52,935 nt of DNA, from contig QIAU01000143.1 in assembly GCA_003225055.1 (NCBI GenBank), forward strand, positions 76,577 to 129,511, written 5' to 3'. This DNA is from Acidobacteriota bacterium (GTDB taxonomy: Bacteria; Acidobacteriota; Terriglobia; Terriglobales; Acidobacteriaceae). This document shows positions 1 through 29,412 of the stretch, piece by piece; position 1 is the first letter of the stretch; every line of letters begins with the position of its first letter. The notes beneath the pieces are model-generated. The model worked only from the letters and a program-made list of their open reading frames with translations. It searched no databases and was not told the DNA's origin. Made by a program: the position numbers and the translations under genes.

Positions 1-1256
1 GCCTGGCCTAGCCGATAGTGAGCATCCCCGAGATCAGGATTGCGCTCCAGAGCCTTCAAGTACTCGGGGATCGCCTCGGTATACTTCTTCTGGTCCGAGT
101 ACAGATTCCCGAGCTGCTGGTGCGCCTCGGCGTAGGCCGGATGGAGTGCCACCGCCTTCCTCAGCAGATCCTCGATCTGATGGAGGTCCAGGGTCGCGTC
201 CTCGACTCGCCGCCCCTTCCACAAACTCATCGCGTAATAATAAAGAGCACGAGCATTCTCGGGCTGCAGCTGGGCAAATCGACGAAACCGCTGGATCACG
301 TCCTCGGCCTGGTTGGGCGAGCTGTCGTAAGCCTTGGATAGAAAAAGATAAGCGCGAGCATCCGCGGGGTCCAGGTCGGTCGCACGCAACAGGGATTTAA
401 CCGCCTCGTCGTAGTTGCCACGCGAATAAAGAGCCATGCCCAATCCAATCGCCAGCCGCGGCGAATTGGGGTAGCGTCCGGTGGCCTTGTGGAAAACTTC
501 GACGGCGGGATCAAGGGTGCGATGCAGAAGCAGCTCACTGCCCCAGTCAAACAAGTTACTCTCAGAGGGGTCAAGGTGCGCTGCCGCCTGAAATTCATTA
601 GCGGCTGCCACGGAATTCCCATCCTTCTCTTCGATTTGCGCCAGCAGGTTATGCAGTTCCGCCGTGTCCTTCTGCTTCAGCAGATCCGCGACTTGGCGCC
701 TGGCGTCGGCTACGCGCCCGACATGCAGACAGGCAAGCGACAAATCGTAACCGTTGTCGTAGGAGGAAGGCTTGAGCTGCTGCGCCTGCTCGAGGTAAGG
801 CAGGGCCTCCGAAATCTTCTTCGCGGTGACATAAAACTCGCCCAAGTTATGGACCGTGTCGTAACTATCCGGCTCGAGTTCGACCGCCTTCTTAAACTCC
901 GCTTCTGCGGGTCCGAGCTTGCCGAGTCGAATCAGGTTGGTCGCCAGATTGGTTCGCGCCGGGGCCGACTTCGGATTTAACTGCACGGCCTTTTCGAGAT
1001 GCGCGGTTGCCTTGGAATCCTGAGGCTGTGCAACATAGGCCATGCCGAGCAGTTCCTGGACATCGAAGCTGTCGGGGAGTTCCCGAACCAATTTCTGGAG
1101 GCGAGCAGCGGCTGCCCTGAAATGACCGGAATTATAATCCGAAACAGCGGCCTGAAATTCGCGATCCAGCTGCCGGTGATCGGTCTGAGCCTGAACGGGC
1201 GATAGCAGGGCGAGGCAAATTAGGAGGAGAAAAATAGCCCGGAATTGGAGAGTCAC
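1..1256 (-). CDS. Exported TPR-repeat protein, C-terminus cut by window edge
   Basis: The reading frame starts at a GTG at 1256 and stays open to the left edge, so the C-terminus is missing. An in-frame TAA five codons upstream of the GTG limits how far the protein could extend. The N-terminus is a clear Sec signal peptide: a hydrophobic run (RAIFLLLICLALLSP) followed by a VQAQ cleavage-like site. What follows is tetratricopeptide repeat sequence, for example HLEKAVQLNPKSAPARTN near the start and LGNLYSDQKKYTEAIPEYL near the edge. TPR arrays are protein-binding scaffolds, here in the periplasm. It lies 83 bp downstream of the TonB-dependent receptor on the same strand, so co-transcription is likely. 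The visible last residues (AHYRLGQA) match the C-terminal TPR of the 16707-18335 protein, suggesting a paralogous family. The ligand is unknown. Confidence 0.85.
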   Translation of the reverse strand, partial: MTLQFRAIFLLLICLALLSPVQAQTDHRQLDREFQAAVSDYNSGHFRAAAARLQKLVRELPDSFDVQELLGMAYVAQPQDSKATAHLEKAVQLNPKSAPARTNLATNLIRLGKLGPAEAEFKKAVELEPDSYDTVHNLGEFYVTAKKISEALPYLEQAQQLKPSSYDNGYDLSLACLHVGRVADARRQVADLLKQKDTAELHNLLAQIEEKDGNSVAAANEFQAAAHLDPSESNLFDWGSELLLHRTLDPAVEVFHKATGRYPNSPRLAIGLGMALYSRGNYDEAVKSLLRATDLDPADARAYLFLSKAYDSSPNQAEDVIQRFRRFAQLQPENARALYYYAMSLWKGRRVEDATLDLHQIEDLLRKAVALHPAYAEAHQQLGNLYSDQKKYTEAIPEYLKALERNPDLGDAHYRLGQ

Positions 1257-19970: not shown

Positions 19971-21256
19971 ATGCGCGCGCTCACGGCTGCACTTCTTATC
20001 CCTCTGCTCGCCTTGCCCACCAAGCGTGGGAAACCGATCTCCACTATGGCCTTACGAAATGGCTAGCGGTCAAGGCAGGGTTTTCTGTGGACGAAGAAGA
20101 GATCATCGCTTCGGGAGCGCAAGATGAACCGGGCGCCTCCCGCTTAGTGCAACACAACCATTTCCCCTCCTATGCGCCAGTACCGGACAGGCATCTAGCT
20201 CGCAGCGGCACGCCGGGTGACGATTCGGCCACACGCTGGACGCGGATGGAACTGGCAACAGCCGCCAAAGGTGCTCCCCACGCCATCGCACTGTTTCGTT
20301 TCGGTAACTCGCTCCACCCGTTGGAAGATTCCTGGTCGCACGCGGGAGTGCCCGACATCGCAATCACCTGCGACCATAGCTTGGCATGGGGGCACCCGAA
20401 GAAACGCGGCGGGGTGCTGTCCCACGATGCCGACATCACCTACAAGCACATCCCTGACACGGAGCAGACTGCTCAGAGGGTCTACGAAAAAATATATCTG
20501 CTCGAGTACCATAAGCTCATGGGTGGCGGCTCGCAACCGGCCTCATGGGCCAGCCTTCAACCCGCCGTGTATCAGTTTGCCGAAGCAGCGACCAAATCTG
20601 GCAAGTTGGCTTGGTTCGAGTCCGATCCAGCGGTTCCATACCGCAGTTCGCAAGTGCTTTCTCAATCACATCAGCATTCCCGATGGGCCGAAATATCGCT
20701 GTCCCGAGCCCTCTCGGCCCCCGATGCTGGCCGCGGCGATGCCAGCGCCCGTCAACGACGCTGAGAGATTCCTGCGCCGGTTTCTCGAAAATTGGATTGT
20801 GGGAAGCAAACTTGATTTTGTCACCAAGCCGATCGACAGCGAAGGCGTACTGGCGAACCTTGGCCTCACTGAAGTTCGTCATCCCGCACTGCTGCGAAAC
20901 ATGCTCCTCACCTGGCTAAACCCTGATCACGGAATCGTCAAACAGACAGGACATGGAACACGTCTTGAAGTCCCCCCAGGCTAAGAGACCGACTTGAAAA
21001 GGATCTGGTGTCCTTTCCCAGTTTATCGGACGCTATTCGCGCGGGCCAAACCGATCTTCCTTATCTATTCAGCCCCGTGCCTGGCGGCGAAGATACAAAG
21101 GCTGAGCACATCGCGACATTCCAATTTGTTACTGCCCCGCGGGACGTAGTCGCAATCGGAGTGGCGCATCAGGCAACAGGATGGAAGGTGGTCTGCTTTA
21201 AACTGGGTAGCCTTCTAACATCAAGCGAGTCCAACAGGCTGAGCGCCAACCGCTGA
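19971..21256 (+). pseudogene. Exported protein of phospholipase C-like type, broken by three frameshifts
   Basis: A good GAGAGG ribosome-binding site precedes an ATG at 19971 and a signal peptide (MRALTAALLIPLLALPT). The rest of the protein continues in another frame from about 20015 (AHQAWETDLHYGLTKWLA...). It returns to the first frame near 20645 (NHISIPDGPKYRCPEP) and shifts again at a six-C run at 20972-20977 (RLRDRLEKDLVSFPSLSDA), ending at 21256. Joined, it would be about 428 residues. The stretch FRFGNSLHPLEDSWSHAG recalls the metal-binding His/Asp pattern of zinc-dependent phospholipase C/S1-P1 relatives, but the assignment is weak. It is divergent from tonB by only about 30 bp. The shifts could be real decay or sequencing errors. 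Confidence 0.6.
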
Positions 21257-21378
21257 CGGCGGTGAGCGAAGGAGGCGAGAGTCCCATCTCCAGCCCAATT
21301 GCTCCTGGAGTCCGGGAGGTGGATGTGAGGTTTCGCGTACCTCCGGACCGACGAGCGAATTCGCAGCGGTCTTGCGAT

Positions 21379-22086
21379 CTACGGCCGCCGCTCGTAGGCG
21401 GGGCTAGAAGGGCTGGGCGGCTCGTAATCTTGTCCGTATTTGTTCTTGTGAGCGTGGGTTACCGGGATTTGCATAAGACGGATGGTCCCGAGCCGGGAGG
21501 TATTCTCGGAAATCGTTATCTCGCGAGCCTGGTTTCTCAAATGATCCGGCAAGGAGGCTTCGGACCAGACGCGGAGCAGGTATCGTCCTGGGGTGACATT
21601 CTTGATTTCCACCTCGCCACGTCGATTGGAGAGTGCATAATACGGAGTTTCCACGGCAATGACCACGGCGCTCATTTCCGGGTGAATGTTACAAAAAATG
21701 TAAGAGATACCGGGGCGATCGAAGTGCACGTCTCGGGTAGTGCCTGCCTCATATAGTCCCAGGTCAAAACGCTTTCCTTCGAAGAGCGAAAACACGTTGT
21801 GGAAGAAAGGGTCACGATTGGGGAATTCTACAGAAGAACCTACCGGCACAACTATTATATGCGGCTCGAAGTGCTTGTTCCGCTGAACCAGCCGAGGTCG
21901 GGGGCGGCGAGGAGATTCGTCGGCTACACCGGCTGACAGGTTGAGCGGAGTAAGCCACATCGCGACGTTCGAAGCGCTCGTGGGATTTTCGAGTCCGCCG
22001 GACTTCTGAAATTCAACCCTGGCGGTCACGGTGGGTGCCTGTCCCCAGGCGAAACTGCCCAGCAAAAGAGACACACAAATTTCCAT
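21379..22086 (-). CDS. Exported cupredoxin-like protein
   Basis: A 235-residue exported protein. I prefer the ATG at 22086, which places the signal peptide (MEICVSLLLGSFAWGQ) at the very start; the frame is open to 22134, overlapping little or nothing. The middle part has a plastocyanin/azurin-like type-1 copper pattern: a His in FPNRDPFFHNVFS, then Cys, His and Met in YIFCNIHPEMSAVV. A carboxypeptidase-regulatory-like segment follows (YYALSNRRGEVEIKNVTPGRYLLRVW). Single-domain blue-copper proteins usually carry electrons or bind copper. It is the last gene of a leftward unit with a porin, histidine kinase and response regulator, 53 bp or less from the porin. A role in metal or redox stress at the envelope is inferred. 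Confidence 0.8.
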   Translation of the reverse strand: MEICVSLLLGSFAWGQAPTVTARVEFQKSGGLENPTSASNVAMWLTPLNLSAGVADESPRRPRPRLVQRNKHFEPHIIVVPVGSSVEFPNRDPFFHNVFSLFEGKRFDLGLYEAGTTRDVHFDRPGISYIFCNIHPEMSAVVIAVETPYYALSNRRGEVEIKNVTPGRYLLRVWSEASLPDHLRNQAREITISENTSRLGTIRLMQIPVTHAHKNKYGQDYEPPSPSSPAYERRP

Positions 22087-22138
22087 CCGGCGCCTTTTTA
22101 TAATGCATCGAATGCTGATGTTCGCGCAGAGCATGTTC

Positions 22139-23713
22139 TCAGAACAGAATACCCATTGTCAGGTTTACCTGCCCACCGGTCCGGCCCGCCAGATCAAGCG
22201 GCGAAGTTCTTAGATGATTGTATTGGGCCGATAGCAACAGGTTTTGATGGGGCCGGTAAATGACGTTGCCAAAGGCGCTGCGATTCTGTCGTAGATCGAG
22301 CGGAAGACTGCTATTGCTCTCGCCTGTCGAAAACGCCCGAACATCTTGCGCAATCGCATTATCAGTACCGAAGGCCGCGTTGAATTCCAGCTTTGCTGTG
22401 GGGCGAAACTTAAGTTGAGACCAACCTCCCAACGCATTCAGACCCCGGATTTGAACACCCCGATAAATTACCGGCCCGCTGAGAATGGCGGAGCGGCCAA
22501 TTCCGCCACCCAGCGCCCCCAGAGCCTTACCGCGGTAAAACTCGCCACTGAGGGTCCATCGCCCGCTTAGAGGAATGTCCCAATCTGCCGTACCGGCCCA
22601 GCCATCCTGATAACGGTCGAACCACCAGTCCTGACGGCCGTAATAAGCCGCCGCACCCAGCGTCAGTGGCTGATCGAACAGCGAACAGCTCCAGGCCACT
22701 CGCGCGGCATACGCTGGCTGGCCGATCCTTTCTCCGGCCTGCGGGATGTTTCCCCATTGCGATACGGGGAGATCGCCGGTGAGGTTGTCCAAAATTCCGA
22801 ATTGCATCAGGAGATTGGAGTTCGCGGTGATATCAAAACTGTGTTCCACCCGAACCTGAGGCACCCATTCCCAGAGATTGCCGGCGTAAGTGAAGGCGGG
22901 AACAGCGAGCGAACTGAATGATGTCGGCGAAAGTGGCGTGAAAAAGGCTTCGTCTTGACCAGCGATCAGGGAGGTCTTTTTCCAATCCAAGTGGAGGGTG
23001 GCTGTACGCAATCGCAATATTCCGGAGGTGACACCATTGGGAATGTTTGGAAAGCCACCCGCGAAATCCAGCTGAACGTCTCCTCGAGTGCTTGCTCCAG
23101 CCAGATGAGGCCCAAACACTTCCAGCCCGACCTCCGACTGGCGGAGCGTTGCGCCGAAGCTTCCCTGCGGGTGACCGGAGTAGGGAGCAGCCACGAGGGA
23201 AGGAAAATCCTGATTGTCGAAGATGCCGCGATCGCTGAACAGGTTCATCAACACCATGCCGGACAGGCGGACGCGATACTTCGAGGCACTTTCAATCTTG
23301 GTCTGATATTGCTCGTTGATCTTGGCACTGAGCAATTGGGAATCTTCTTCCAGCCGGCTGACCCGATCTTCGAGCGGCCAGCTGGCAGGAGACGGTGCCG
23401 GTACTTGCGGGGCTGGTTGCGCCAGGTTGCTGCCAGATCCCAATTCTGCTCTGGTTTGCTGTAATTCCTGGCGTAGCGACGCCGCTTCAGCGCGATAGTG
23501 TGCTGCTTCAGAACGGATCTCAACAACCGCCTCCCGGAGTTGCCGGACTTGCTCCTCGAGGTCGTGCATAGCTGACAATACTGCATCGTTTGGCGCTTCC
23601 CGGGGCGGTGTTCGAGGATCCTGCGCCCGGGACAGCGTGGCAAAAGCACACACAACGAACAACGGCAAGGCAAATCTTCCAAATGCAAAAACCGAAGTGG
23701 TCCTATCTAGCAC
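22139..23713 (-). CDS. Outer-membrane porin-like protein with N-terminal coiled coil
   Basis: A 524-residue protein starting at a GTG at 23713 with AGGAGG just upstream. A signal peptide (FALPLFVVCAFATLSRAQ) is followed by a heptad-rich region at about residues 45-90 (LEEQVRQLREAVVEIRSEA, YRAEAASLRQELQQTRAEL). A short linker then leads to alternating amphipathic strands typical of a beta-barrel, ending VNLTMGILF with a terminal Phe. The layout matches coiled-coil-anchored porins of the DcaP/phosphate-selective-like group, where the coil trimerises or contacts peptidoglycan. Being in a two-component operon, its expression is probably regulated by the adjacent kinase pair. Substrate unknown. 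Confidence 0.8.
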   Translation of the reverse strand: MLDRTTSVFAFGRFALPLFVVCAFATLSRAQDPRTPPREAPNDAVLSAMHDLEEQVRQLREAVVEIRSEAAHYRAEAASLRQELQQTRAELGSGSNLAQPAPQVPAPSPASWPLEDRVSRLEEDSQLLSAKINEQYQTKIESASKYRVRLSGMVLMNLFSDRGIFDNQDFPSLVAAPYSGHPQGSFGATLRQSEVGLEVFGPHLAGASTRGDVQLDFAGGFPNIPNGVTSGILRLRTATLHLDWKKTSLIAGQDEAFFTPLSPTSFSSLAVPAFTYAGNLWEWVPQVRVEHSFDITANSNLLMQFGILDNLTGDLPVSQWGNIPQAGERIGQPAYAARVAWSCSLFDQPLTLGAAAYYGRQDWWFDRYQDGWAGTADWDIPLSGRWTLSGEFYRGKALGALGGGIGRSAILSGPVIYRGVQIRGLNALGGWSQLKFRPTAKLEFNAAFGTDNAIAQDVRAFSTGESNSSLPLDLRQNRSAFGNVIYRPHQNLLLSAQYNHLRTSPLDLAGRTGGQVNLTMGILF

Positions 23714-23797
23714 AGGCGCCTCCTGAGGACGAAGACTAGAGTTCTGCTGCTACGGATTTCATCAGGTTGGCCCCTTCCGCTGCCGGAACCCGCTACT

Positions 23798-25603
23798 TCA
23801 TTGTGTGTCGGCTGAACTCGCAGGGTTGAGGGGTGGGCCAGCAACCGTGCCCACCTCAGTTCGCGGAGAACTCGACGACACAAGCGGAAGAACTACTTTG
23901 AAAACGGTACCCTGGTCGGAGGTTTTCTCAACCGTCACATCGCCGCCGTGATCTTGCACGATCTTCTGCACCACTGCCAGACCGAGACCGGTGCCGTTTT
24001 CCTTCCCGGCGCTGACAAAGGGCTGGAAGAGGCGATCTCGAATGAATTCTGGAATACCTTGGCCATTATCCGACACACGAATTTCGACGCCGCTTGCTAT
24101 GGCTCGCAAGTTGACATCGATGCGGCCGTTCGACGGTGATACCGCTTCGCACGCGTTCAACAAGAGATTGGACAGAGCGCGCTCCAGCTTTCGGGGATCA
24201 AACCAGCCTTCAATTCTGTCGTCACCAACAAAATCGAGGGCGATTTGGTGGAACTCGGGATGTGCTTTGATGGACTGCACTGCGCGCTCGACTGACTCGG
24301 TAAGGATGCCATAGGTGGGCCGGAGCGATTCGCGGGTACGGGAAAACTCCAGGAGCGAATCGATCAGATCGGTCATTTGGTTTACGGCGATGCGTACTTC
24401 CTGATACAACTCCTCGCGCTGGTCGGCAGCTAAGCCGGCTTCGCACAGAAACTCCGCATTGGCGACTATGGCCGCGAGGGAGTGACGCAGGTCGTGGGAA
24501 ATGGAACTGGCCATGCGTCCTATGGTGGCCAGGCGTTCGGATTCCAACAGACTACCTTGCGTCTTGAGCAGATTCCCTCGCATGCGGTCGAAAGCCTGGG
24601 ACACTTCTGCGACTTCGTCGCCGCCCGTCGTGGTGAGCGGGAAGGCGAAATCTCCCCTGGCCAGGGCGCGCACGCCTTGAACTAACTCTCCCAAAGGCCT
24701 GGTAAAAGTATGAGAGATGAGAAAGACTAAGGCGCTGCCACTTAACACCGCGATTATGCCGAGCAACAGGAGCAACCGGTTCAGACTGTCCAGGAACAGG
24801 GTGGCTTGATCGTAGGACTTGAGCACACTTAGGCGCACGGTGGGAGTTTTTCCGGCAGCCAGATCCAAGGTGGTAGCCAGAAATCGCTCGTCGGCCAACT
24901 GAATCGTACTTGGTTGCAGGGCATCGGAAACCGAGAGTGCGTCCACTTGCCGAACCAGGTCCGACTCCTGAAGGCTGGGCAATGTGCTTCTCACGATCGT
25001 GCTGCCGTAAGAAAAAGCAACCTGGCTGGCGGCGATCCGGCTGACTTCAGCGGTCAGGTGCTCGTCGATTTCGTAGCCTACGGCCAGAAACCCCACCACT
25101 TGATTGGCCGCTTCCGGTCCGAAGTAAATAGGCTTAAGGAAGACCTCGTAAAGGTGACCCGCGCCAAACCACCATTGACCAGAGCTGCTCTCTTCCAGAG
25201 AGTTCTGGAGAAACGTTTGCGCCAGATCGCGGCTGAATCCCGGAGTAATCGTATGGAGTGCAACCACATTCCCCGAACGATTCGAGAGCACAAACAAATC
25301 GCTGCCTGCCAGGCGCCACAGACGGCCCGAACCATCCTGAATGGTGGCCACATCGGTGGTCGTCATGAGCGCACGGAGGTCCGGAAGATCGGCCAGTAAT
25401 TCTGCTGAATGGGTGAGTGTGGCTTCGCGTTCGCGCTGGAAATTCTGAAAAGTGCCCGCGGAATTTCGCAGATCGGCAAAGATTTCTTTCCGTACCTGCG
25501 TCTGAACACTACGGCGTACAACGAGCAGGCTAGTGCACGTGAGTGCCGACGAAATCAGCAGCATGGAAAGCAGGAACTTGGTACGCAGTCGAAACCCTGT
25601 CAC
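23798..25603 (-). CDS. Membrane sensor histidine kinase
   Basis: About 601 residues from a GTG at 25603, preceded by GAGGGCGGAC. The frame extends to a TTG at 25639 without a visible ribosome-binding site. The first membrane segment (KFLLSMLLISSALTCTSLLVV) and a second near residue 290 (LLLLLGIIAVLSGSALVFLI) enclose a periplasmic sensor of about 240 residues with Cache-like features (GFLAVGYEIDEHLTAEV). Then follow HAMP (FTRPLGELVQGVRALARGDF), the dimerisation/phosphoacceptor helix with SHDLRHSL, and a complete ATP-binding domain (NLLLNACEAV, DNGQGIP, GTGLGLAVVQKI). It lies 53 bp or less downstream of its OmpR-type partner and upstream of the porin and cupredoxin genes. The signal it senses is unknown. 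Confidence 0.92.
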   Translation of the reverse strand: MTGFRLRTKFLLSMLLISSALTCTSLLVVRRSVQTQVRKEIFADLRNSAGTFQNFQREREATLTHSAELLADLPDLRALMTTTDVATIQDGSGRLWRLAGSDLFVLSNRSGNVVALHTITPGFSRDLAQTFLQNSLEESSSGQWWFGAGHLYEVFLKPIYFGPEAANQVVGFLAVGYEIDEHLTAEVSRIAASQVAFSYGSTIVRSTLPSLQESDLVRQVDALSVSDALQPSTIQLADERFLATTLDLAAGKTPTVRLSVLKSYDQATLFLDSLNRLLLLLGIIAVLSGSALVFLISHTFTRPLGELVQGVRALARGDFAFPLTTTGGDEVAEVSQAFDRMRGNLLKTQGSLLESERLATIGRMASSISHDLRHSLAAIVANAEFLCEAGLAADQREELYQEVRIAVNQMTDLIDSLLEFSRTRESLRPTYGILTESVERAVQSIKAHPEFHQIALDFVGDDRIEGWFDPRKLERALSNLLLNACEAVSPSNGRIDVNLRAIASGVEIRVSDNGQGIPEFIRDRLFQPFVSAGKENGTGLGLAVVQKIVQDHGGDVTVEKTSDQGTVFKVVLPLVSSSSPRTEVGTVAGPPLNPASSADTQ

Positions 25604-25656
25604 GTCCGCCCTCAGCCTACGCGAAGAATACAAAGCCAAATACAGAGGATCGTATT

Positions 25657-26376
25657 TCAGCGCACAAACTTATAACCCACGCCATGCACGGTGCGGAAAT
25701 GAACTGGATTCGCGGGCTCCTTTTCCAGTTTCTGCCGGATCTTCAGGATGTGGTTGTCCACCGTTCGTGTGGACGGATAATGCTGGTATCCCCACACCTC
25801 GGACAGCAATTCGTCTCGCGAGATTACCCGTTCGGCATTCAGCACCAAGAACTTCAGCGCGCTGAATTCGCGGGCGGTCATCTCGATCGGCTGCCCTCCT
25901 CGAAGCACTTCCATCTTGGCGAAGTTGATGGATATTCCATCGAAGGCGAACATCTCTCCGACTTCATGGCGAACAGTTCGCCTTATCGCAGCCCTGACGC
26001 GGGCCAGCAGCTCCCGAGGACTAAACGGCTTAGTCACGTAATCGTCTGCACCGAGTTCCAACAGCAGCACCTTGTCCGTCACGTCGGTGGTGGCGCTTAG
26101 GATAATAATGGGCAACGCGGGTACTTGTTGCTTAACTTCGCGGCATACGTCTCTGCCTGACATGGCGGGAAGGCGGAGATCCAGGACGATAGCAGAGGGT
26201 ACCGTCGCGCGGAAAGCTTCCAAGGCGGCCTTGCCGTCGCTCTCAACGTCGACCGCGAATCCCTCGGCCTCAAACAAACGTCTCAACGCCTTCTGCACAG
26301 CGCGATCATCCTCGACAACCAGAATTCTCTCCGCCGGCTTCGTTCCGGTCACGGCACGTAAGACTTGCGTCGACAT
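25657..26376 (-). CDS. OmpR/PhoB-family response regulator
   Basis: A 239-residue two-domain regulator. The receiver has the acidic pair at the start (VEDD, 21-24), the phosphoacceptor Asp66 in VLDLRLP and the conserved Lys in YVTKPFSPRE. The C-terminal winged helix is typical (EMTAREFSALKFLVLNAERVISRDELLSEVWG, seen in pieces; TRTVDNHILKIRQKLEKEP; FRTVHGVGYKF). It is the first gene of the leftward kinase/porin/cupredoxin unit. Tandem repeats 50-80 bp and about 200 bp upstream of its start have the 11-bp spacing expected for this family, suggesting autoregulation. Confidence 0.95.
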   Translation of the reverse strand: MSTQVLRAVTGTKPAERILVVEDDRAVQKALRRLFEAEGFAVDVESDGKAALEAFRATVPSAIVLDLRLPAMSGRDVCREVKQQVPALPIIILSATTDVTDKVLLLELGADDYVTKPFSPRELLARVRAAIRRTVRHEVGEMFAFDGISINFAKMEVLRGGQPIEMTAREFSALKFLVLNAERVISRDELLSEVWGYQHYPSTRTVDNHILKIRQKLEKEPANPVHFRTVHGVGYKFVR

Positions 26377-26426
26377 CCACTTAGCTTACTCCTGTTCTGA
26401 CAATTGAGCTGAGAAGAACAGAAATG

Positions 26427-26454
26427 GTGACATTCTTTTTACAATTTCTTGACA
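26427..26454. promoter_or_regulatory. Three tandem half-sites at 11-bp spacing (candidate regulator box 1)
   Basis: GTGACA at 26427, TTTACA at 26438 and TTGACA at 26449 are exactly 11 bp apart start to start, with the shared form nTkACA. OmpR/PhoB-family regulators bind direct repeats with one-helical-turn spacing. The cluster is about 50 bp upstream of the response-regulator start, so the encoded regulator may bind here. Binding itself is inference. Confidence 0.55.
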
Positions 26455-26573
26455 TGTGGGTGTCGCCGACATTGCTCTTGCATGACCTTATCCCCGACCC
26501 AATTGCGCTGAGGGGGCTTTGCGGCTGGAAATGCCCGACCAGGTTATTGCTCTCAACGCCCTGAGAACCTGGA

Positions 26574-26611
26574 ATGACAGTTACTAACAGTCTTTTTACA
26601 TCCCACTGACA
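26574..26611. promoter_or_regulatory. Second tandem half-site cluster (candidate regulator box 2)
   Basis: ATGACA at 26574, CTAACA at 26584, TTTACA at 26595 and CTGACA at 26606 repeat the motif of box 1, with spacings of 10, 11 and 11 bp. The core TCTTTTTACA, six variable bases, then TGACA is shared exactly with box 1. It lies about 80 bp upstream of a decayed rightward gene at 26690, so it may have served as that gene's activator site. Confidence 0.55.
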
Positions 26612-26689
26612 ACTTCAGCCTCTGTGCTCGCCTACTCTCGAAGCGCTGCTTGGCGGATTTCCGAAAGGTGAAATCTCCAAAGGTAAGTC

Positions 26690-26845
26690 ATGAGCGTAAA
26701 CAAAGCGGTCCGGGCGGAGGAGCGCCGTAATTCCAGCGCTTCTGTCTATTCTCATAGTGGTTTCGATTCCGGCAATTGCCGGGTCTTACGAACAGACCAA
26801 TCTCGATTCTGACATTGCAGGAGTGGCTCGGAATAGTGACGTGCG
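26690..26845 (+). pseudogene. N-terminal remnant of an exported TIGR03118-like protein
   Basis: AAAGG precedes an ATG at 26690, but after about 12 codons the plausible protein continues in the next frame. That frame gives a signal peptide (VIPALLSILIVVSIPAIAG) and SYEQTNLDSDIAGVARNSD. This resembles the start of the exported TIGR03118 family (typically an exported propeller-like protein opening with a TNLVSD-type motif). The similarity ends near 26845 and nothing recognisable follows, so the gene is truncated as well as frameshifted. The family call rests on a short match from memory. Confidence 0.4.
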
Positions 26846-27232
26846 GCCTCGCGTGCAACGTGCAAATGCCAGGAGGCTCAGCAGCAAGTCTCGTGGTCCT
26901 CTGAAGGATTTCCATCACCAGCCGATTACCAGCAACGGCCTGGGGGGTGAAGTTCGGAAGTGGAGGCAGGAGGCGGGATCCTGATTTTGGTGGTGTCGCG
27001 GCGTCCCACACTGCCCGAACGAGTGCGTGATGGGAATCGGCGCCTGCCTTTCTCGGAGCACTCGGAATCTAAGGCTTGTCTCTGGCTAGCTCTGGCTAGC
27101 AAGTCGCGGTCATCGCGGTCATCCGGTTGTTGATGTGGAGCAAAGATAAGTCTAAGATCCCGGAGTACTCTCCCGCTTTGACAGCCTCAAGCAAGGGCTT
27201 ACCTTCCCTATTCGACCGCGTTCGTTAATTCA
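26846..27232. other. Non-coding stretch with short tandem duplications
   Basis: No gene is recognisable here on either strand. Two perfect short tandem duplications occur side by side: a 10-bp unit at 27081-27100 (TCTGGCTAGC twice) and a 9-bp unit at about 27104-27122 (TCGCGGTCA twice). These look like replication-slippage scars in decaying sequence. Confidence 0.5.
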
Positions 27233-27430
27233 ATGTCGATGATTCCTCCCGACGTCCGATTCGCGTGTGTTCAGAGGTCTCCTCTCTTTCAGGCGATCTA
27301 CCGCCAGGGTGACCCGGTAAAATTCATCTTTGTCCTCGTCTCCGGCCGTCTGAAGACTACCGAAACCAGCCATGGGGGCGCCGAGGTGATCCTAAGCATA
27401 GAGGAAGCTGGAAGCGTCGTAGGCGAACTG
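27233..27430 (+). pseudogene. Crp/Fnr-type cyclic-nucleotide-binding domain fragment
   Basis: The translation SPLFQAIYRQGDPVKFIFVLVSGRLK followed by GAEVILSIEEAGSVVGEL is, apart from order of pieces, a recognisable cNMP-binding beta-roll of Crp/Fnr regulators (the two quoted pieces are separated by about eight residues). Only the first part of that domain remains; the rest of the roll and the helix-turn-helix are absent. Downstream sequence no longer fits the family. It is therefore a truncated remnant without DNA-binding capacity. Confidence 0.55.
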
Positions 27431-27643
27431 AGGGTAGAACGTTCAACAACGTCCGCACCTTCGGCGAGCACAAGCTTCCCGAATCAATGCGTCATTGCCT
27501 TCAGGCGGTCCAGCCGACCTGCCACCGATTACCCTTAGTACGGTTAACAACCGGGGTGCAATCCGATGCGATTTGGACAGATCACGGCCATGAACGGCAA
27601 CGCACACCGAGGGAATTTAAGTTCGCTCTGAAGCTGCGCTTTT
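27430..27643 (+). pseudogene. 3' remnant of a TonB-dependent receptor gene
   Basis: Immediately after the Crp-like fragment the sequence can be read as the last part of a TonB-dependent receptor. ELRVE and FNN resemble the LRSEFFNIFNH motif of the 1340-5179 receptor. RFGQITAMNGNAH then appears, and after a one-base shift REFKFALKLRF followed by TAG at 27643. The last seven residues parallel FALKLYF at the end of the intact receptor. At least one frameshift and much divergence make it non-functional. Confidence 0.45.
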
Positions 27644-27668
27644 AGGGGGCTGTCCCGGACAGCCCTCT
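27644..27668. terminator. Near-perfect stem-loop after the receptor remnant
   Basis: GGGCTGTCC at 27647-27655 pairs with GGACAGCCC at 27657-27665 around a single C. Flanking A, G and G pair with the bases beyond, giving an arm of up to twelve pairs. It begins right after the TAG of the receptor remnant. No T-run follows, so it is a terminator-like or processing hairpin rather than a classic intrinsic terminator. Confidence 0.45.
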
Positions 27669-27792
27669 GAGCCGTCGCACCCACACCGCTGGCCAGGCTT
27701 TTTAGCAATGGATGATGCTAGTCGGTTGGGCCAGCAATCTATTGGGGTTGGCGATCGGTAAAATCCCGGTGCCCTTCGCATAGGAGAGAACA

Positions 27793-29412
27793 ATGTCGCC
27801 ATTCGCTAGATTTCTCTGGATCGCGCCGTTCACTGTCATGGCTATCTTGGTTGCCAATCGATTTGCATCCGACGAAGTGAAAACCGAAGCTGGCGTGGTT
27901 GCAGGCACCACCAATGCCGATCGCACCGTGCGTATCTTCAAAGGTGTTCCCTTTGCGGCACCGCCCCTTGGCGATCTACGCTGGAAAGCCCCACAGCCTA
28001 TGCCCAAATGGAACGGCGTACGGCAAGCCGACAAATTTGGCTCAGCATGTTTGCAGACGAATGTATTCGGCGACATTTACTTCCGCGATAGTCAACCCAG
28101 TGAGGACTGCCTGACGCTTAACATCTGGATGCCGGCGAAACCCGCGAGCCCCAAGCTCCCCGTTTTTCTCTGGTTCTACGGCGGTGGATTCGTCGCGGGC
28201 AGCTCGTCGGAACCGCGCTACGATGGAGAAAACCTGGCCAAGAAAGGCATCATGGTCGTCGAACCGAATTACCGCCTCGGTGTGTTTGGGTTCTTCTCCC
28301 ATCCTGAGTTGACCAAGGAATCCGGGCACAATTCCTCAGGCAACTACGGACTGCTCGATCAGGTTGCGGCTCTAAAGTGGGTGGTCAACAACATCGCCGC
28401 GTTTGGCGGCGATCCGGGCAACATTACGATCGGCGGCGAATCGGCAGGTTCGTTTTCGGTTTGTGCGCTGATGGCCTCCCCTGTTTCCCGTGACCTCTTC
28501 CAGCGGGCCATTGGTGAGAGTGGGGCGTTTTTCCCCAGCCGCAAAGAAGGCGGCCTCACGGTTAAGCCGCTGTCTGAGAGCGAGCAGTTTGGGGTGAAGT
28601 TTGCCCGCTCGGTTGGGGCAAAGAATCTGGCCGAAATGCGAGCTAAATCCGGTGACGAACTGTTGCAGGCAGCGGCCAGGCTCAACCGCAGGTTGGCGTT
28701 TGGTCCGAATATCGACGGCTATTTCTTGCCTTCCGATGCCGCGACTATCTACGGGCGCGGTGAGCAGGCTCATGTCCCACTGCTTGCCGGTTGGAACGCG
28801 GATGAAGGCAAGATGATGGTGCTGATGTCGCCACAGAAGCCCACCTCAAGGAGCTTTGCCGAGCAGGCACAACAACGGTTCGGGAATCAGGCTGCGGAGT
28901 TCCTCAAGTTATATCCCGCCAAAACAGACGAGGAAGCGATCCTCTCCGCCGAGCAGCTGTCGAGCGATGACTTTATCGCTTACTCCACCTGGAAATGGCT
29001 CAACCTGCAGAACACGATCGGCCCCGCAACCGTCTACACCTACCACTTCGAGCAGGTGCCCGCAACCAAGCCCGGTGCGATGATTGGCCTGGTGCCGGCC
29101 AGCGAACTGGGAGCTAAACATGCCGGCGAAATTCACTACGTCTTTCAGACTCTGAAATCGGAAGACGTGCCCTGGAGCGAGAATGATTTCCAGGTTTCCG
29201 ATGCGATGTCGTCTTATTGGGCAAATTTCGTTAAGACCGGCAACCCTAATGCCAAAGGCCTGCCCGATTGGCCTCCGTACAACCAGGGCAACGGTTTCGA
29301 AGTGATGCACCTATCGGGCAAGGACATTCACGCCGCGCCCGAAACGAACCGCGCGCGCTACGAGTTCCTCGATGCACATGCGCCGAAAAGCAGCGGCGCC
29401 GACATACACTAA
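27793..29412 (+). CDS. Type-B carboxylesterase (alpha/beta hydrolase)
   Basis: A 539-residue exported esterase starting at an ATG with AGGAGAG upstream. An N-terminal hydrophobic stretch (FLWIAPFTVMAILVANRFA) is a signal peptide or anchor. Family hallmarks are the opening TEAGVVAGTTNADRTVRIFKG, the conserved EDCLTLNIWMPA, the oxyanion-hole WFYGGGFVAGS and the nucleophile elbow GGESAGS with Ser217. A later His lies in LGAKHAGEIHYVF and probably completes the triad. It would hydrolyse carboxylic esters in the periplasm or outside. The gene stands alone between a pseudogene graveyard and a damaged MFS gene, and it carries no frameshift. Natural substrate unknown. Confidence 0.92.
   Translation: MSPFARFLWIAPFTVMAILVANRFASDEVKTEAGVVAGTTNADRTVRIFKGVPFAAPPLGDLRWKAPQPMPKWNGVRQADKFGSACLQTNVFGDIYFRDSQPSEDCLTLNIWMPAKPASPKLPVFLWFYGGGFVAGSSSEPRYDGENLAKKGIMVVEPNYRLGVFGFFSHPELTKESGHNSSGNYGLLDQVAALKWVVNNIAAFGGDPGNITIGGESAGSFSVCALMASPVSRDLFQRAIGESGAFFPSRKEGGLTVKPLSESEQFGVKFARSVGAKNLAEMRAKSGDELLQAAARLNRRLAFGPNIDGYFLPSDAATIYGRGEQAHVPLLAGWNADEGKMMVLMSPQKPTSRSFAEQAQQRFGNQAAEFLKLYPAKTDEEAILSAEQLSSDDFIAYSTWKWLNLQNTIGPATVYTYHFEQVPATKPGAMIGLVPASELGAKHAGEIHYVFQTLKSEDVPWSENDFQVSDAMSSYWANFVKTGNPNAKGLPDWPPYNQGNGFEVMHLSGKDIHAAPETNRARYEFLDAHAPKSSGADIH

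Follow-up and report, generated by a model that had tools for sequence, protein, structure and literature searches.

Tandem half-site arrays beside an OmpR/PhoB-type regulator gene of Terriglobales: probable operators with two promoter geometries, and a candidate RNA element in relatives

Two clusters of short tandem half-sites lie upstream of a response regulator gene in the window, the whole 52,935-nt stretch of acidobacterial DNA that was analyzed. Does this regulator bind them and, if so, which genes would it control? The regulator (25657..26376, minus strand, 239 aa), the presumed binder of both clusters, consists of a receiver and a winged helix; its matches to PF00072 (3e-29) and PF00486 (4.6e-26) are both above cut-off, placing it in the OmpR/PhoB family. 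The same strand encodes a sensor histidine kinase with HAMP, HisKA and HATPase domain matches (23798..25639), an outer-membrane porin-like protein (22139..23713, named by eye, with a sub-threshold Pfam match only) and a cupredoxin-like exported protein (21379..22134, also named by eye, with no match in Pfam or NCBIfam). The order regulator-kinase-porin, with the kinase adjoining the regulator, is kept in all 20 relatives compared (two porins are cut by the contig end), and the cupredoxin-like gene is found in 18 of them, the remaining two contigs stopping before that point. By title, all 40 named loci carrying the regulator at 61-84% identity belong to Acidobacteria, Acidobacteriota, Acidobacteriaceae, Acidobacteriales, Terriglobia or Terriglobales. 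The recognition-helix region of the regulator is nearly constant across 30 loci, the window's own included. The genome encodes about ten full-length OmpR-type regulators, so that another of them could have the same motif.

Box 1 (26428-26454) reads TGACA-N6-TTACA-N6-TGACA on the plus strand, that is, TGTCA-N6-TGTAA-N6-TGTCA on the sense strand of the regulator. Its half-sites (26428-26432, 26439-26443 and 26450-26454) follow each other at exact 11-bp steps, as an earlier note on this DNA had claimed. Box 2 (26575-26611, plus strand) reads TGACA-N5-TAACA-N6-TTACA-N6-TGACA, with half-sites at 26575-26579, 26585-26589, 26596-26600 and 26607-26611. The positions and the steps of 10, 11 and 11 bp given for it were right, and its description as four TKACA half-sites was too strict, one of them being TAACA. 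The core that the two boxes were said to share is there as TCTTTTTACA-N6-TGACA (26434-26454 in box 1 and 26591-26611 in box 2). The boxes are separated by 157 bp, about 15 helical turns, and by sequence are in phase.

Such arrays are rare. With up to one mismatch allowed, the window contains two triple half-sites, which are the two boxes, against 0.02 per shuffle, and none of 100 shuffles had two. The long common core (up to two mismatches) was likewise found twice, against 0.04 per shuffle, as was TKACA-N6-TGACA, against 0.11. Across the 7.41-Mb genome the triple array (up to one mismatch) gave 13 matches versus two for the reversed control. The two-half-site composite TTTACA-N6-TGACA gave five exact matches, two of them in the boxes, and none when reversed; by our own estimate, five per genome is not far above chance for 11 fixed bases. 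The evidence rests on the arrays because an 11-base composite is expected a few times per genome by chance. In the family, triple arrays occur in 199 of 398 genomes, with at least 150 matches versus at least 12 control matches by our own count.

To which gene does box 1 belong? Its conservation was followed in three sets of loci that overlap in part. In a family set of 30 loci (one with just 187 bp upstream), the exact pair TGTMA-N6-TGTCA is present upstream of the regulator in 22, including the window's own. In a set of 21 loci that also includes the window, TGTMA-N6-TGTMA stands within 250 bp upstream in 18, and any other spacing from 0 to 24 is seen in two at most. For the set of named Acidobacteriota, 39 of 56 loci were used, omitting one partial match (L207) and those of other taxa with at most 40% identity (L209-L224), and one more (L173) was dropped for its short upstream sequence. 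Among the resulting 38, TGTMA-N6-TGTMA is found upstream of the regulator in 31. The half-site spacing of 17 implied by a triple array occurs in 16 of the 38, and no other spacing between 0 and 19 in more than one locus. The phylogenetic footprinting proposed in the earlier note thus recovers the array pair upstream of the orthologous regulator gene.

The pair also keeps its distance to a -10-like word. Of the 31 footprinted orthologs, 26 have a TAnnnT 39 or 40 nt past its last half-site; the exceptions are the five that have the pair without this word and the seven of 38 in which the pair is missing. In the window the corresponding putative -10, TAAGCT (26383..26388, minus strand), lies 39 nt downstream of box 1. 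The ATG of the regulator is 6 nt beyond it, and the nearest relative (L169) is alike, suggesting that the regulator transcript may be leaderless or nearly so; many other relatives have a longer stretch ahead of the matched regulator start. A rightward TAnnnT 20 nt past the regulator's own box was present in 1 of 23 orthologs. Box 1 is best read as an operator at the regulator's own promoter.

A second geometry was uncovered away from the regulator gene. From the family search we took, without selection of our own, 30 triple-site loci from as many genomes and read them on the strand that carries TKACA. In 17 of them TAnnnT comes exactly 20 nt past the last TGACA and in three it comes at 21 nt, where 0.65% per position is the background; for the 17 the binomial value is 8e-30, a figure overstated by the relatedness of the genomes. 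Among the sites listed, 26 distinct ones with the 20-nt distance have diverged spacers. Six of the remaining 10 loci (L123, L126, L128, L131, L140 and L142) carry a sequence that also occurs on the regulator's own promoter, which points in the opposite direction, and on the opposite strand of the 30 loci TAnnnT is found at 39 nt in six. In these forward sites the array ends at about the position of a -35, from which we infer activation, with the array probably standing in for the -35. The genome scan that had been proposed showed the array to be enriched in genome and family, often at a fixed distance to a -10-like word.

The arrays also go with the regulator. Of 100 family genomes, 55 have the regulator, and 36 of these also have triple sites, versus 2 of the 45 without it (Fisher 7e-11); a perfect triple site is missing in the other 19 regulator-bearing genomes. 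For this comparison, with lists compiled by hand, the regulator was scored as present from about 250 bits upward and as absent when full-length matches reached at most 228 bits, and partial matches in three genomes (G048, G024 and G093) were scored as present.

Array enrichment and ortholog footprint support the claim that the boxes resemble operators of the OmpR/PhoB type and belong to the neighboring regulator. We consider it highly probable that both are tandem operators of this regulator, in two geometries, with box 1 serving autoregulation. The earlier reading missed the different promoter geometries of the two boxes, as well as the RNA element of relatives described below. Phosphorylated regulator subunits would line up head to tail on the DNA, each taking one 11-bp step, in the manner of PhoB and of PhoP of Mycobacterium. 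At the regulator's own promoter, where the array is reversed and its near end lies 39 nt upstream of the -10, binding would lead to autoregulation, probably positive. At other targets a forward array whose last TGACA is 20-21 nt upstream of the -10 would replace the -35 and recruit RNA polymerase.

This genome has 13 array sites: three with TAnnnT at 20 nt, two with it at 21 nt and eight that fit neither distance. These eight are without TAnnnT at 19-22 nt; one of them is box 1, which has its own geometry. The 20-nt sites precede a gene for a TIGR03118 protein (TAAAGT, contig C123), a cupredoxin-like exported protein 2.3 kb off, in which Pfam finds a carboxypeptidase regulatory-like domain (TACGCT), and a lipoprotein (TAGCCT, contig C23), the site lying within the longest reading of that last ORF. 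The 21-nt sites are box 2 (TACTCT) and one ahead of a TPR protein on contig C158; in one relative (L161) a TPR protein is divergent from a 20-nt site. A pattern search of the genome for two half-sites followed by the word at 20 nt gave two matches, and none with 17 nt. Elsewhere, a TIGR03118 gene is present in six of 78 loci, and four of the six have TGACA-N20/21-TAnnnT within 300 bp upstream. Some of the target names were given by eye, and by eye most targets look exported. In two other genomes a 20-nt site past the cupredoxin-like gene (L147:5615 and L151:2931, both minus strand) precedes a gene that, by eye, is ribB-like (riboflavin synthesis).

In relatives, a further array on the sense strand stands right behind the cupredoxin-like gene; next come TANNCT and, after it, two hairpins, GAACGGGC..CCGCTGCTG..GCCCGTTC and GRTCCCGGGAYC. 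Among ten loci aligned, nine have the loop word CGCTGCT and seven the entire CCGCTGCTG. The RNA structure was derived from the same alignment (A1) as the covariation counts; a second alignment (A2), with partial and antisense hits, was excluded from the pair counts. In A1, 95% of cells are paired, versus at most 64% in slid-partner controls. Changes on both sides of a pair were counted in 8 cells versus 2.4 in shuffles (reached in 0 of 500), and changed pairs numbered 4 versus 1.7 (18 of 500); the number of pair types was not above shuffles (486 of 500). The element thus appears to have a conserved structure with compensatory changes, as expected of a structured RNA.

A covariance model (R1) was built from ten loci picked by eye after the cupredoxin-like gene, and at E 1.7e-16 or better it finds these and four more, which makes 14 of 100 family genomes. 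The four independent matches (G057, G053, G048 and G037) all lie 66-102 bp past the cupredoxin-like gene, with TGACA 20 nt before TANNNT. In all 14 the element lies 65-203 bp past that gene, and the distance from TGACA to TAnnnT is 20 nt (21 in one). Diverged copies exist in two further loci (L051, with TGACA at 20 nt, and L179). Run on 26 named loci, the model found the element in two, L179 and L171, the latter being G069 again. When 120 genomes of the order were searched, many of which are also in the family set, the only matches that passed 1e-5 were two known copies and a doubtful one in G066 (E 2.3e-8), which was not counted as the element. At E 0.1 the model matched 47 of the 100 family genomes, including the 14 strong ones. 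None of the weaker matches was counted: in the 15 loci of theirs that were inspected (L102-L116), TKACA is missing from the 50 nt upstream, and 12 of the 15 are within ORFs. For the genome of the window itself, the best match (E 7e-4, window 1066-1136, minus strand) falls within a 453-codon ORF and the next five loci (L082-L086) are also inside ORFs; these six of the seven leading loci were rejected, and the search yielded no acceptable copy among them. Rfam 15 gave no match to the element at gathering score in 12 loci, and none at E 1 in window 20000-29000; its only hits in the 12 loci were parts of a group II intron, domains RF02001 and RF02003, which follow soon after the element in L057:8189-8475 (G009). 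In genus g29 (L133, L134 and L135), a conserved stretch, TTGCTGGCCCTGCGCC..., comes after the array and is possibly a functional counterpart of the element.

Behind the element, the next ORF is a TIGR03118 gene on the same strand in four of the 14 loci (L091, L092, L099 and L100), another ORF on the same strand in two and an opposing one in eight. It is possible, if rather doubtful, that the element is the 5' leader of the TIGR03118 mRNA rather than a free small RNA, and that it was retained, or stayed on as a remnant in loci that have lost the gene. The four loci would fit this, as would L179, where a TIGR03118 gene also follows on the same strand. However, where the next ORF is opposing the element is as strong as anywhere (84.7 bits in L088 and 84.5 in L089), and the TIGR03118 gene of the window's genome has a 20-nt promoter without a match to the element. 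In L091 the order is element, TIGR03118 gene, opposing gene, and the same opposing gene directly follows the element in six other loci. This order suggests either that a gene was lost from behind the element or that the element stood free until the gene arrived. A small RNA is somewhat favored over a leader. A search for pairing of the RNA with the starts of the cassette genes at 10 loci gave no consistent signal.

In enterobacteria, the EnvZ/OmpR two-component system is tied to outer-membrane proteins and also drives the small RNAs OmrA and OmrB. The system described here might be an analogue that arose independently: a conserved Terriglobales circuit in which a two-component system in a fixed cassette controls its own gene through the reverse 39-nt geometry, scattered exported proteins through the forward 20-nt geometry and, in part of the family, an undescribed family of small RNAs with a CGCUGCU loop encoded after the cassette. 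We see the case for this entire circuit as evenly balanced; it is weakened by the gene that stands behind the RNA in four of 14 loci. Unlike OmrA and OmrB, the RNA is without an Rfam match, adjoins the cassette, is known from sequence alone and, in some genomes, could be a leader.

We now return to box 2. A putative -10, TACTCT (26633..26638, plus strand), lies 21 nt past it and would make a promoter facing right; it fits the 20/21-nt rule, as do four other array sites of the genome. Box 2 is best read as a rightward promoter of the forward type with a predicted start near 26645 (plus strand), whose product would be unconserved. None of the 99 other family genomes matches box 2 or the flank to its right, and in structure the predicted transcript does not exceed its shuffles (fold z-score 0.01). 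The region past box 2 was rejected as a homolog of the RNA element, with which it has only CGCTGCT in common and, by the same z-score, no excess of structure; the R1 search found no element there either. Box 2 could instead assist box 1 from 157 bp away. To its right lies a short ORF for a cNMP-binding protein (27233-27538, PF00027, 101 aa) with no DNA-binding match, perhaps a decayed Crp-type gene.

Box 1 might also be a repressor site, with box 2 as a second operator of the regulator promoter acting by a loop. The reversal of box 1 relative to the forward sites and the phasing of the boxes over the 157 bp between them would suit such an arrangement. We nevertheless find it unlikely: box 1 is upstream of any -35, its distance of 39-40 nt to TAnnnT in 26 of 31 orthologs would suit an activator, and box 2 is absent from relatives and has a TAnnnT of its own at 21 nt. 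Autoregulation from box 1, probably positive, with box 2 as a separate promoter, is the reading that we prefer.

The hairpin element could be a mere terminator of the cassette operon, an explanation that we judge improbable. It does have two hairpins and lies 65-203 bp past the cupredoxin-like gene in 14 of 14 loci, but TGACA with TAnnnT at 20-21 nt stands between gene and hairpins in all 14. The loop word is kept in nine of ten, and T-runs past the second hairpin are weak or missing in most of the ten loci.

How does this regulator relate to known systems? Head-to-tail binding to repeats with an 11-bp step is established for PhoB and PhoP (PMC4832192 and PMC4415409). For E. coli PhoB and its Pho box, these papers give the likenesses to our case, namely tandem TGTCA cores 11 bp apart, a winged helix of the OmpR/PhoB type and head-to-tail binding. 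M. tuberculosis PhoP requires 7-bp motifs with a 4-bp spacer, and tandem trimers and tetramers are treated as well (PMC4832192). By protein sequence, the full-length solved chains closest to our regulator are those of M. tuberculosis MtrA and RegX3. The regulator scores 212.3 of 300 bits on the MtrA equivalog, which does not reach the cut-off, and is below the curated cut-off of RpaB. Its closest DNA-binding domain is that of the response regulator in PDB 7e1b/7e1d, with a recognition region of PTTRTVDTHVLQLRQKL against PSTRTVDNHILKIRQKL, compared by sequence.

The likeness to the Pho box raises the question of whether the boxes are Pho boxes of the genome's true PhoB rather than sites of the cassette regulator, which we hold to be very improbable. 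In spacing and core, TGTCA-N6-TGTCA equals the Pho box of E. coli, CTGTCAT(A/T)4CTGTCAT (PMC4832192). However, a PhoU gene is about 2 kb away from the best match to the PhoB model (C44:61230-61904, 241 bits, itself under the cut-off), and all 13 array sites are on contigs other than those with PhoU genes (C44, C216 and C220). Across genomes the arrays track the cassette regulator, and they occur on its own promoter. The cassette regulator reaches 201.3 of 296.2 bits on the PhoB equivalog, below the cut-off; three other regulators of the genome outscore it on this model, none reaching the cut-off. It is located on contig C20, without linkage to PhoU, which has matches on the three contigs named only; the regulator near PhoU is a different one of this genome. 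The forward arrays also differ from the Pho box in that they read TKACA towards the gene, whereas the direction is the opposite in the Pho box at pstS, and in that their end is 20 nt short of the -10-like word. The array layout is PhoB-like, but the cassette regulator is not PhoB. Finally, the probability that AT-rich words between two genes merely fell into this pattern by chance is negligible: the two-half-site composite does occur near expectation, five times in the genome, but shuffle counts, fixed -10 distance and above all the ortholog footprint contradict it.

Operators of the OmpR/PhoB type are of a known kind; the pair of regulator and site, the two geometries and the linked RNA appear undescribed. 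In the literature searched, with its incomplete journal coverage, no Acidobacteriota regulon motif, promoter rule, small RNA or cassette of this sort is described. Sequence alone here proposes a binder, its site, two promoter geometries and targets, all of which can be checked in cultured Terriglobales. With the 20-nt rule, target prediction for a widespread regulator would become a pattern search, and the RNA element, whether free or a leader, would offer a way into the control of the envelope by RNA in this phylum.

Two minor observations concern other sites. In the window's genome, two sites upstream of exported proteins (L074:5498-5524 and L075:5763-5789, both minus strand) have in common TTACAAc...CTTGCAA.AAATTTACA and then AACATCATA.TTGCGCC, perhaps the motif of another regulator. 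At L072:5403-5440, four TTACA follow each other at 11-bp steps ahead of an ORF of 910 residues that resembles a response regulator/kinase; this array has no TAnnnT at 19-22 nt.
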